NCBI RefSeq assembly: GCF_024138145.1
Contig: NZ_CP099997.1
Coordinates: 2,480,001 to 2,544,000, forward strand
Direction: 5' to 3'
DNA from: Natronosalvus halobius
GTDB lineage: Archaea; Halobacteriota; Halobacteria; Halobacteriales; Natrialbaceae
Length of the DNA stretch: 64,000 bases
The position numbers were made by a program, and so were the translations under genes. A model generated the notes under the pieces. That model had not been told where the DNA came from, ran no database searches, and was given only the letters and a program-made list of their open reading frames with translations. Numbering within the stretch: the stretch's first letter is position 1; the number at the start of each line of letters is the position of its first letter. Positions 5,594-12,221 of the stretch are shown here, one piece after another.

Positions 5594-6523
5594 ATGGAAA
5601 ATTACGACCAACAGACGAACGAGACGCGATCGATCCACACCGGCGTACAGCTGTTACTCGTCTTCATCGGCGTCGCCTTCCTCGTCGCCGGGCTGGTACT
5701 CGCCGCAGGTGGGTCGAGCCTCATCGGATCGGATGGTCCAGTTGGCGGGCTCGCACCGTGGGATTCGGGCTCTTCGGGCGACGATGACGAATTCCAGCAA
5801 CCCTCCGAGGACGGGGATTCCGACGGAAGTGACGACTCGAGCGGTGATAGTGATGGCGATGGCGGCGAGCAGACCGAAGATGGGTCGGACGGTGACGAGA
5901 CGGATACCGACGGCGGTGGCGACAGTGGTGATGGCGAAGATGGCGATGGTGGAGACGGTGATGGCGGAGACAGTGATGGCGGAGACAGTGATGGCGGAGA
6001 CAGTGATGGCGGAGACAGTGATGGCGGAGACAGTGATGGCGGAGACAGTGATGATAGTGATAGTACCGATGGCAGTGACGGAAGCGATGACGACGGTAGT
6101 AGCGACGACGGCAGCAGCGGTGACGATGGGAGTGATGACGGCAGCGACGATGGCAGTGACGGCGACGACGGTGATAACAACGACAGCGACGACGGGAGTG
6201 ACGGCGACACGTCGACACTCAGCATCATCGTCGAAGACGACGACGGCAACGCGATCGAAGGCGCTACCGTCCAGGTCGAGGACGACGGGATGATCTTCGG
6301 ATACAGCGAGGAGAAATCGACCGACGGAAACGGATTCGCGGAGTTCGAGCTCGAGGACGGCGAGTACGAAGTCACCGTGACCGCGGACGGCTACGAGGGC
6401 GCCCAGACCACCATCGAGATGTCCGGCGACGACGAGATGCTCATCGCCACGCTCCAGGAGTCTGGCGATAGCGACGGAGGCGACGACAACGAGACGACCG
6501 ACGACAACGAGACCGACGGCTAA
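5594..6523 (+). CDS. Membrane-anchored surface protein with Asp/Ser/Gly repeat stalk and carboxypeptidase-regulatory-like domain
   Basis: The 309-residue product has a short cytoplasmic N-terminus, one hydrophobic helix (about residues 19-42) acting as signal anchor, then about 150 residues made almost wholly of Asp, Gly and Ser, including six exact GGDSD units. The C-terminal domain of about 80 residues (starting LSIIVEDDDGNAIEGATVQV) is a beta-sandwich of the carboxypeptidase regulatory / PEGA type, often found on extracellular proteins. The likely picture is a small domain held away from the membrane by a highly charged flexible stalk suited to high salt. Ligand and role are unknown. The repeat DNA makes the stalk length prone to change by slippage. 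Confidence 0.8.
   Translation: MENYDQQTNETRSIHTGVQLLLVFIGVAFLVAGLVLAAGGSSLIGSDGPVGGLAPWDSGSSGDDDEFQQPSEDGDSDGSDDSSGDSDGDGGEQTEDGSDGDETDTDGGGDSGDGEDGDGGDGDGGDSDGGDSDGGDSDGGDSDGGDSDGGDSDDSDSTDGSDGSDDDGSSDDGSSGDDGSDDGSDDGSDGDDGDNNDSDDGSDGDTSTLSIIVEDDDGNAIEGATVQVEDDGMIFGYSEEKSTDGNGFAEFELEDGEYEVTVTADGYEGAQTTIEMSGDDEMLIATLQESGDSDGGDDNETTDDNETDG
5963..6052 (+). repeat. In-frame 15-base tandem repeat, 6 perfect copies
   Basis: Unit GGCGGAGACAGTGAT, encoding GGDSD, is repeated six times without a mismatch. Related but diverged units flank it on both sides. It lies inside the stalk of the surface protein, and copy-number change would keep the reading frame. Confidence 0.97.
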
Positions 6524-10074: not shown

Positions 10075-10260
10075 GGCGGTGCTCGAGAAGCGACGAGTCG
10101 ACCATGCGAGGCGACGAGCGAGGGCGTTTCGTCCAGCAGATGGCGGGAAGCGTTCGGCTACTAACAAGCGCATAAACCAAACATATCGAAAAGCCGACCG
10201 GACCTTAACGAGACGGTAGTCGAATTTAGACTCAGTTCATCGACTTTACGTTCGTAATTG

Positions 10261-10302
10261 CTATATAACTCATCGTCGACCGGCCGATATGGTGAGTACG
10301 CA
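10261..10302 (+). promoter_or_regulatory. TATA box that fixes the start of the following gene
   Basis: CTATATAACT at 10261-10270 is a strong archaeal TATA box. It overlaps an upstream in-frame TTG at 10258, which therefore cannot be the start, and it lies about 35 bases before the GTG at 10303. Confidence 0.6.
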
Positions 10303-10968
10303 GTGTTAGAGTACATCAAACCCTTCACCGACATCGTCTTTCCGGCGGTGTACATCCTGTTCTTCATCGGGACGATCGGCGTTCTGGCGTTCGCCAACAG
10401 ATCCATCGCGAAAAAGGTCTGGTTGGCGTGTTTTTTCGCCCTGTTGGTGGCGGTGACGGTCGTCGGGATGACCGTCATGCCCGTCGTCGAGATGCACAAG
10501 TACTCCCAGCCGAACAGCGACGAGATGACCTACTACGAGGTCCGAATCGTCGACTCAGCGGGGAACGAAATCGAGCTCGACGATCGTGCTACGCCGCCGA
10601 TGACTGGCTCGCGGACGTCGTCTGTGGGCCAGAAGATGGCCTACCAGTACGACGATGAGGAACGCATGGAGATGGGTAGATTCTACATCGAGAAGGTGAA
10701 CAGGTATCGAGCGACGATCGAATCGGGCGGTCCCCCGATCTATACGGCGCTGGAACCGCCACGCTACGTCGACGACCAGCAGTGGACCGCCGAGCAACTC
10801 AAGAACTACGAAGAGTTCGAGTCAGTCCGTATCTACGAGCGAACCATAGTCGTTAACGAGGATAACGATGCAGTCGAGCGCAACGAGGAAACGCACCTCG
10901 TGACGATCGACATCGCTAACGAGACCGTTACCGAAAACGAGACTGCAATCGAGGGTGAGCAGGCATGA
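10303..10968 (+). CDS. Membrane protein of unknown function, partner of the HTTM-DCC protein
   Basis: The 221-residue product starts with GTG (10303), chosen from the TATA box. Two membrane helices lie in the first 65 residues (PAVYILFFIGTIGVLAFA and VWLACFFALLVAVTVVGMTV). The rest is a soluble, charged domain, probably outside the cell given the N-terminal topology, with no cysteine and no recognised motif. The stop overlaps the next start (ATGA at 10965-10968), so both genes are almost certainly co-translated. HTTM/carboxylase-like proteins are often paired with a membrane protein of this build, so the two may form a complex; that is inference. Confidence 0.75.
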   Translation: MLEYIKPFTDIVFPAVYILFFIGTIGVLAFANRSIAKKVWLACFFALLVAVTVVGMTVMPVVEMHKYSQPNSDEMTYYEVRIVDSAGNEIELDDRATPPMTGSRTSSVGQKMAYQYDDEERMEMGRFYIEKVNRYRATIESGGPPIYTALEPPRYVDDQQWTAEQLKNYEEFESVRIYERTIVVNEDNDAVERNEETHLVTIDIANETVTENETAIEGEQA

Positions 10969-12221
10969 GCGCGTTCGTCAACTACTTCGACGACGACACC
11001 CGATCGACCCCGATCAACCTCGCCGTCGTTCGCGTGCTCCTCGGATCGTGGGTGCTCTGGCGAATGCTCTCGCTCGACTGGGACTTCTACGGCGAGTGGC
11101 CCCGGCACTTCAACCCGCCAATCGCCTACCTCCATCAGGACGTCTTCTTCACCCTGCTGCCGTACCTGCAGTGGGTCCTCGCAGGGTTGCTGGTCCTGTT
11201 CATCGTCGGGTACAAGACCCGGTGGTCGGGCGGTCTCGCCAGCCTCCTGATGATGCACATGCTGGCAGTCAAGTCGACCATCTACCTCGCGGGGACCATC
11301 GAGTCGCTGTTCGCCTGTGCGTACATGATTCTCCTGTTCGCACTGTTCTGCGAGGACGACGTGCTGTCGGTCGATACCGTGATTCGAACGAAAGACAGGT
11401 CGATCGATCAATTAAATACGTTCCTGAAAGAAGGGAGTGACGAAACGCATCGGGCGCGCGCCCTGAAGTGGGGGTTGCTCACCGTCGGCCTGCTCTACCT
11501 CGGGTCCGCCTGGGGCAAGTTCATGAACGGGCCGATCGACATCTGGCTCTCCGGCGCCGACCTTCAACGGGACATCCTGCGCAACCAGGAGATGACCGGT
11601 ATGGTACGGCCGCTCGCCCAGCCCATCCTCGAGTACGACGCGCTGGCCTGGATCGGTTTCCTCGGTACCGGCCTGGTCCAGGCGTCGCTCATCGTCGTGG
11701 TTCTGCTGGGGCTGCCGATCACGCTGTCCGCGCTCGGCCTGATTGGGTTCCACCTCTCCGTAGTCGCGACGCTGGGCCTGTACTTCATCGACATGATCCT
11801 CGTCCTCTCGCTGTTCGCCGCCTGGGACGTGGCCTACCGCTGGCTCGCCGCGGATGCGGACGACCGCGTCACGCTGGTCTACGACGAGCGCTGTTACTTC
11901 TGCGCCCGGAGCCTCTATCTCTTCAAGCACCTCGACGTCAACGACTCGGTTCGGTTTCGCTCGCAGTCGGACGCGCCGCGAGAACTCGTCGACCGCGACG
12001 GCGTCGACCTCGACGAAGAGATGTACCTGTTCCGCGACGGTGAGGCCTACGGCGGCTACGAGGCATTCCGCCAGCTGTTCAAGCAGTTCCGGGTCTTTGC
12101 CCCGATCGTCCTCCTGATGGCGCTCCCGCCGGTCAGGATGGTCGGCAACCGCGTGTACGCCTACATCGCGCGCAACCGGAGTCGCCACTTCGTCTGCAGC
12201 ATCGACGCCGAGCAGTCCTGA
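10965..12221 (+). CDS. HTTM (vitamin K-dependent carboxylase-like) membrane domain fused to a DCC (DUF393) thiol-disulfide oxidoreductase-like domain
   Basis: The 418-residue protein has an N-terminal membrane domain with about seven or eight hydrophobic helices (residues 15-295), matching the HTTM family, distantly related to vitamin K-dependent gamma-glutamyl carboxylase. A soluble DUF393/DCC domain follows, with the defining motif VYDERCYFC (Asp307, Cys310, Cys313), the redox pair on a thioredoxin-like fold. Such fusions are known in bacteria and archaea but their substrate is not established. Helix layout puts the CxxC domain on the cytoplasmic side, though this is uncertain. The gene overlaps its membrane partner by four bases. 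A T5 run at 12236-12240 may end the transcript. Confidence 0.85.
   Translation: MSAFVNYFDDDTRSTPINLAVVRVLLGSWVLWRMLSLDWDFYGEWPRHFNPPIAYLHQDVFFTLLPYLQWVLAGLLVLFIVGYKTRWSGGLASLLMMHMLAVKSTIYLAGTIESLFACAYMILLFALFCEDDVLSVDTVIRTKDRSIDQLNTFLKEGSDETHRARALKWGLLTVGLLYLGSAWGKFMNGPIDIWLSGADLQRDILRNQEMTGMVRPLAQPILEYDALAWIGFLGTGLVQASLIVVVLLGLPITLSALGLIGFHLSVVATLGLYFIDMILVLSLFAAWDVAYRWLAADADDRVTLVYDERCYFCARSLYLFKHLDVNDSVRFRSQSDAPRELVDRDGVDLDEEMYLFRDGEAYGGYEAFRQLFKQFRVFAPIVLLMALPPVRMVGNRVYAYIARNRSRHFVCSIDAEQS

Follow-up and report, generated by a model that had tools for sequence, protein, structure and literature searches.

A conserved haloarchaeal gene pair encodes a divergent HTTM-superfamily protein fused to a DCC domain and a membrane-anchored partner

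Two overlapping genes of Natronosalvus halobius encode a membrane-anchored partner protein (ORF A) and a divergent HTTM-superfamily membrane core fused to a DCC domain (ORF B). They lie in the window, the 64,000-nucleotide stretch of contig NZ_CP099997.1 that was analysed (positions 2,480,001 to 2,544,000); coordinates below are counted from its first nucleotide. The reading that we prefer, with a probability of roughly 40%, is that the pair constitutes a two-protein membrane enzyme, similar to SdpA/SdpB, which would act at the outer cell face to mature a secreted or surface polypeptide.

Results

Organization of the gene pair

A sequence-only reading of this DNA had described an HTTM-DCC fusion gene that overlaps, and is co-translated with, the gene of a membrane partner. 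This observation was confirmed, the stop codon of ORF A and the start codon of ORF B sharing four bases (Table 1). A likely TATA box lies about 35 nt 5' of the ORF A GTG, and the identical string recurs at about this distance in two close relatives. A longer, mechanically assigned ORF A start at 10258 was rejected because it is not kept in relatives, whereas the start at the 10303 position is. The 4-base overlap is found at 22 of 36 other loci; the remainder have other overlaps or short gaps, whose sizes depend on the start codons chosen. Comparison with the two close relatives yielded dN/dS values of 0.10-0.11 for ORF B and 0.25-0.29 for ORF A; both genes are under purifying selection. The pair is flanked upstream by a gene that we take to encode RNase Z and downstream by one that presumably encodes a DUF460 protein, both recognised by eye. 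Elsewhere in the window (5594-6523) is an ORF with an N-terminal stretch resembling a membrane helix, followed by a very long Asp/Gly/Ser repeat region.

Table 1. Features of the gene pair in the window
Feature	Coordinates	Strand	Basis
TATATAA, likely archaeal TATA box of the pair	10262..10268	+	read in sequence; function putative
ORF A, partner: two N-terminal membrane helices and soluble domain, 221 aa, GTG start	10303..10968	+	
ORF A helix 1, residues 6-29	10318..10389	+	AlphaFold model
ORF A helix 2, residues 34-58	10402..10476	+	AlphaFold model
ORF A soluble domain, residues 61-221	10483..10965	+	
ATGA stop/start overlap of ORF A and ORF B	10965..10968	+	read in sequence
ORF B, HTTM-DCC fusion, 418 aa, ATG start	10965..12221	+	
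HTTM-superfamily core of ORF B, residues 1-303, with eight helices and both termini probably inside	10965..11873	+	
Gly110, invariant (35/35), at the place of GGCX His160	11292..11294	+	transitive alignment
Lys185, invariant (35/35), aligned with GGCX Lys218	11517..11519	+	transitive alignment
Phe274, invariant (35/35), at about the place of GGCX Phe299	11784..11786	+	transitive alignment
DCC1-like (PF04134) thiol-disulfide oxidoreductase domain	11874..12191	+	Pfam, E 2.8e-16
CYFC redox motif, C310 and C313	11892..11903	+	read in sequence

Distribution of the pair

Across 391 genomes of the class, an ORF A profile matched 37 places, the window included, spread over 28 genomes. At all 36 places besides the window an HTTM core follows the partner directly on the same strand (37/37 with the window). 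The same was true of a separate collection of named genomes (Natronococcus, Natronolimnohabitans, Halostagnicola and Halogranum), in which 8 of 8 loci were paired, so that pairing in haloarchaeal relatives, which had been proposed as a check, was borne out. When 382 genomes of the class were searched with an ORF B profile, one further strong HTTM core was found without a partner match (genome G337), and this is a shortened copy missing about 40 profile columns. A search of 392 genomes of the phylum with ORF A matched 12, five of which are class members (G000, G003, G020, G098 and G112). The remaining seven, outside the class, matched in a membrane-helix stretch only, and the two of these places that were read (L149 and L151) contain no HTTM gene.

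The neighbourhood of the pair in the window is common to eight loci from eight other genomes, and the other pair loci lie in varied places, among the loci listed. The possibility that an extra gene travels with the pair was rejected, as clustering of the neighbours at L023-L029 and L060-L089 revealed none present in all places. Likewise, no conserved substrate or small peptide gene was seen beside the haloarchaeal pair among the neighbours listed. Some extra copies (L023 and L065-L067) adjoin flippase-like and glycosyltransferase-like genes, named by eye, which would be expected if the pair served the assembly of surface glycans or lipids rather than protein maturation. Most copies, however, lie outside glycan-type islands among the loci listed, and we consider such a role very unlikely.

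The HTTM-superfamily core of ORF B

The Pfam HTTM model PF05090 did not match ORF B at E<=10. Profile-profile comparison nevertheless related ORF B to eight bacterial HTTM proteins (E 4.6e-13) and to 30 haloarchaeal HTTM proteins (E 2.1e-11), scores that none of 30 shuffles reached, and comparison of the two full alignments, ORF B family against HTTM, gave E 4.8e-18. In turn, a profile built from 13 HTTM proteins of bacteria and haloarchaea found human GGCX, the vitamin K-dependent gamma-carboxylase, at E 5.5e-15, with a match spanning residues 49-324 of 758. The earlier assignment of a vitamin K-carboxylase-like (HTTM) domain thus held up, as did the kinship of HTTM and GGCX, though the standard Pfam model misses ORF B. 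On the strength of these profile comparisons, which we regard as decisive, ORF B is classed as a member of the HTTM/GGCX superfamily. We file it as a divergent member rather than under PF05090, because that model did not match any of 35 ORF B homologues at E<=5.

Structural searches were less informative. The AlphaFold model of ORF B was weak (pLDDT 64.6), and a Foldseek search with it returned nothing at E<=0.001. With the same weak model VIA-align placed GGCX at rows 8-9 (Z 6.7, rmsd 6.7-7.2 over 244-245 residues), which is not above background. A PDB sequence search with the ORF B homologue alignment found nothing, and viral contigs contained no match for ORF B. The absence of ORF A (see below) and ORF B matches in the PDB and Foldseek searches is no evidence of a new fold.

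Lysine and arginine make up 15% of the residues on the side of ORF B that carries the N-terminus, loop 4 and the DCC domain, versus 5% on the side of Lys185. From this charge distribution we infer that the DCC domain is probably cytoplasmic and the Lys185 site outward-facing, like the lumen-facing site of GGCX.

Conserved residues of the core

ORF B residues were mapped onto GGCX by chaining two alignments, with K218 of GGCX assigned from the numbering offset of the aligned chains. Conserved residues in the HTTM core were looked for in 35 homologues and found: in addition to Lys185, Gly110 and Phe274, further N, W and R residues of the family are invariant (35/35). Lys185 aligns with K218 of GGCX, the second lysine in its GVKKL string. 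In a study of GGCX, K218 is described as the base that deprotonates vitamin K hydroquinone, its replacement by alanine as abolishing catalysis, F299 as lining the naphthoquinone pocket, and H160 as holding the glutamate together with N159 (PMC12589487).

The retained Lys185 and Phe274, together with glycine in place of His160, are compatible with quinol chemistry and argue against carboxylation of glutamate. Judged from these alignments, quinol-base chemistry of the HTTM core is possible, and glutamate gamma-carboxylation of the GGCX type is unlikely because the H160 position is Gly. The quinone-linked chemistry suggested by the sequence-only reading is therefore allowed by the invariant base lysine, whereas carboxyglutamate formation as in GGCX, which it had named as something to look for, is disfavoured by the glycine in all 35 homologues and by a PF07884 search that turned up no homologue of VKOR, the vitamin K epoxide reductase that recycles the quinone, in the genome at E<=0.001 (assembly 95% complete). 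A genuine archaeal vitamin K-type glutamate gamma-carboxylase would account for the retrieval of GGCX by the HTTM profile and for the retained lysine. Apart from the missing histidine and VKOR, however, the propeptide-binding region of GGCX lies outside the match, which stops at residue 324, and we regard this identity as highly improbable.

The DCC domain

The second half of the proposed fusion was equally clear, the PF04134 match covering ORF B residues 304-409 with 61.2 bits against a cut-off of 27.8. The CxxC motif is intact in 27 of 35 homologues. Four homologues (the first copy at L023, L084, L087 and L088) are missing the DCC domain and four (L025, L065, L067 and L085) are missing one or both cysteines. 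The alignment behind these counts omits L066, in which HTTM and DCC are separated by a frame shift, L089, a close relative with 93% identity, and the second HTTM fragment of L023. As 8 of 35 homologues are without the domain or its CxxC, the DCC domain looks auxiliary to the pair. For the thiol-disulfide role put forward earlier, the presence of the CxxC stands in its favour; a central place for the CxxC is weakened, since the eight homologues without it still keep the pair, and thiol exchange is probably secondary.

The same counts bear on the idea that the HTTM core is a non-enzymatic scaffold or quinone sensor, with the DCC domain carrying out thiol-disulfide exchange on cytoplasmic or membrane proteins. 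The CxxC is intact in the window as well as in the 27 homologues, and the genome's own single-chain HTTM gene adjoins stand-alone DCC and glutaredoxin-reductase fusion genes. This explanation nonetheless seems to us decidedly unlikely: the HTTM core is better conserved than the DCC domain, Lys185, Gly110 and Phe274 being kept throughout the 35 homologues.

Several of the defective sequences are extra copies of the pair. In L025, L065 and L067 one CxxC cysteine is lost, and in L066 the DCC sequence is in another frame than HTTM; we read these four as redox-domain decay in extra copies. The second copy in genome G003 (L023:6449-9121) comprises an HTTM gene that lacks DCC, then a transposase-like gene on the opposite strand, and after it a fragment of another HTTM gene and a DCC fragment with a stop; it was probably broken by insertion.

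The partner protein ORF A

The AlphaFold model of ORF A (mean pLDDT 74) consists of two helices followed by a beta/alpha domain (residues 74-211), in agreement with the earlier description of a partner with two helices and a soluble domain; the soluble part spans about 160 residues. P60, E89, R136 and P153 are invariant in all 36 rows of an alignment that omits L089, and W161 is kept in 35 of them. The loop between the helices is positively charged (3.2 K/R per sequence), which by the positive-inside rule suggests that the soluble domain is outside the cell.

Scans with Pfam, NCBIfam and PADLOC gave no real family match for ORF A, a PDB sequence search with its alignment returned chance rows only, and Foldseek with the model, which is of fair quality, found nothing at E<=0.001. 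PF19136 (DUF5819), the family of the protein encoded before HTTM in bacteria (see below), is absent from the families listed for ORF A and from the 25 of 43 listed for the 36 members. Membership of ORF A in DUF5819 was not accepted (hhalign E 0.29). ORF A does resemble DUF5819 in gene place and layout only: its gene is directly upstream of, and overlaps, an HTTM gene, and it is an anchored outside domain, the side being judged from charge. The description of the partner as unknown therefore stands in that no family was found, and is qualified in that it occupies the place of bacterial DUF5819.

ORF A was also compared with the C-terminal region of haloarchaeal HTTM proteins. Kinship of the soluble domain with this region was rejected, as its score (E 0.055) was equalled or exceeded in 4 of 60 column shuffles and in 13 of 60 block shuffles. 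With helix and soluble domain together, E was 0.0039 and none of 60 full shuffles reached the score. When the helix was kept in the shuffles none of 80 did so, and 2 of 80 did with the remainder shuffled in blocks of 10. Because the helix-kept shuffles averaged 22.1-22.3 compared to 26.3 observed, most of this score comes from the membrane helix. Two of the shuffle sets contained one very high outlier each (134.6 and 131.0); when one set was repeated, the highest of 60 was 20.7.

Related gene sets in bacteria and haloarchaea

All eight DUF5819 genes found in plasmid records have an HTTM gene directly after them. A DCC domain is fused to HTTM in one of these sets (Virgibacillus sp. Bac332 plasmid NZ_CP033047.1) and encoded nearby in four (Streptomyces avidinii, S. 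parvus, Macrococcus and Streptomyces sp. NBC_00344); in Curtobacterium, Bacillus subtilis DK01 and Streptomyces sp. NBC_01431 the stretches read showed none. Since every plasmid DUF5819 gene found precedes HTTM and DCC is fused or near in five of the eight, the window pair repeats, in far-diverged form, a widespread three-part arrangement. The bacterial sets share with it a membrane-anchored soluble-domain protein directly before HTTM, and the Virgibacillus DCC-HTTM fusion is as in the window. The partners themselves differ: the bacterial one has one apparent N-terminal helix and the haloarchaeal one has two, with no detectable sequence similarity between them.

The same parts also occur around ordinary, single-chain HTTM proteins of haloarchaea, PF05090 matching in 87 of 145 genomes of the class. 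These proteins have the HTTM core with the same lysine, and a DCC gene lies beside HTTM at 8 of 31 loci (within a flank of about 1.5 kb). Unlike the window pair, they carry the soluble domain in cis after an extra helix, match PF05090 over its cut-off and are not fused to DCC. Their C-terminal region is related to DUF5819 (E 6e-7). The genome of the window itself contains a second, ordinary HTTM gene of this kind (L028:5527-7068; C1:3407526-3409067, minus strand), whose product of 513 aa has the extra helix and C-terminal soluble domain. Next to it lie the stand-alone DCC gene and a gene that fuses glutaredoxin to a pyridine nucleotide reductase (L028:5527-9255), possibly a redox neighbourhood.

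In four of the eight bacterial sets, a gene encoding a small peptide that appears to be secreted is located just upstream (signal peptides judged by eye), whereas none is conserved in haloarchaea. These peptides (L128:2003-2861, L130:1713-2072, L133:2082-2414 and L136:2071-2430) are 101-119 aa long, mostly Gly/Ala-rich, and belong to no Pfam family; the one from Macrococcus weakly matches a bacteriocin-type model (BLB8/JUQZ-1, E 0.024). They look like bacteriocin precursors, and are candidate substrates. In two Streptomyces plasmids the gene upstream of DUF5819-HTTM (L131:306-1763 and L137:1034-2188) encodes a protein of an ice-binding family that has long Gly-Thr-Thr repeats.

The window pair shares with SdpA/SdpB of Bacillus subtilis the organization of a two-gene membrane pair with one HTTM-superfamily member, and SdpA/SdpB are needed for processing of a secreted precursor. 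By analogy, SdpA/SdpB is the closest functional precedent for the pair. To our knowledge, SdpB has no DCC domain. The SdpB model TIGR04033 did not match ORF B, a TIGR04032 search detected no SdpC homologue in the genome, and four bacterial HTTM proteins scanned against the SdpB model gave E values of 7.1e-14 to 9.7e-22, below the cut-off. The pair might accordingly be the maturation machinery of a peptide toxin of the SDP kind, a halocin, with its precursor encoded elsewhere. Such a function would be in keeping with the small peptide genes of the four bacterial sets, with the requirement for both SdpA and SdpB in processing SdpC into the SDP toxin (PMC6818787) and with the occurrence of an HTTM protein, its role given as unclear, in linaridin clusters (PMC9927463). 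We regard it as unlikely, given that SdpC was not detected in the genome, that no conserved small peptide gene lies beside the pair among the neighbours listed, that no immunity gene was seen, and that eight loci from eight other genomes keep the same neighbourhood, unlike a mobile toxin cassette.

Literature searches found no paper naming DUF5819, no paper on the function of the DUF393/DCC domain (judged from the listing), and nothing related on gamma-carboxylase in archaea or prokaryotes (judged by title). The literature covered contains no established chemistry for HTTM proteins of bacteria or archaea, SdpB included.

Discussion

The interpretation of the pair as a two-protein maturation enzyme draws on the kinship of HTTM and GGCX, the invariant Lys185, Gly110 and Phe274 and other invariant residues, strict pairing, the bacterial sets with their upstream peptide genes, the single-chain haloarchaeal HTTM proteins with their DCC neighbours and DUF5819-related C-terminal region, charge topology and purifying selection. 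Against it count that no substrate gene travels with the haloarchaeal pair among the neighbours listed, that the comparison of ORF A with DUF5819 gave E 0.29 and its similarity to the haloarchaeal C-terminal region comes mostly from the helix, that the ORF B model is weak with GGCX not above background, and that the glutamate-binding histidine of GGCX is absent. In such an enzyme the HTTM core of ORF B would bind reduced menaquinone, and Lys185, by its alignment with K218 of GGCX, would be the base that activates the menaquinol in a pocket that, from the charge topology, faces outward. ORF A, anchored by its two helices, may present the substrate outside the cell, a task that SdpA may perform alongside SdpB and that falls to the luminal C-terminal domain in GGCX; this assignment follows from its constant pairing and its layout. 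On the cytoplasmic side the DCC domain could feed electrons to the quinone or to a thiol, or recycle them. The polypeptide substrate would be encoded elsewhere, and the chemistry is probably something other than glutamate gamma-carboxylation.

The comparison with human GGCX extends to an HTTM core with an invariant equivalent of Lys218, a probably outward-facing site and a soluble domain on the same side, supplied here in trans. ORF B differs in having Gly at the His160 position, no C-terminal luminal domain in cis and a fused DCC domain, and no VKOR was found in the genome. A bolder proposal is a self-contained archaeal 'vitamin K cycle', in which surface proteins presented by ORF A would receive a new kind of modification by means of the menaquinol base and the CxxC of the cytoplasmic DCC domain would replace VKOR in re-reducing the oxidised quinone; we consider this quite improbable.

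In bacteria and archaea alike, HTTM proteins keep the same company, namely an outside domain anchored in the membrane and a redox protein of the DCC type, and an entire branch of the superfamily escapes the standard Pfam model. Some haloarchaea are open to genetic manipulation. Being compact, strictly conserved and not accompanied by other genes, the haloarchaeal pair could serve to test whether vitamin K-like quinol-base chemistry exists there, and on what substrate.
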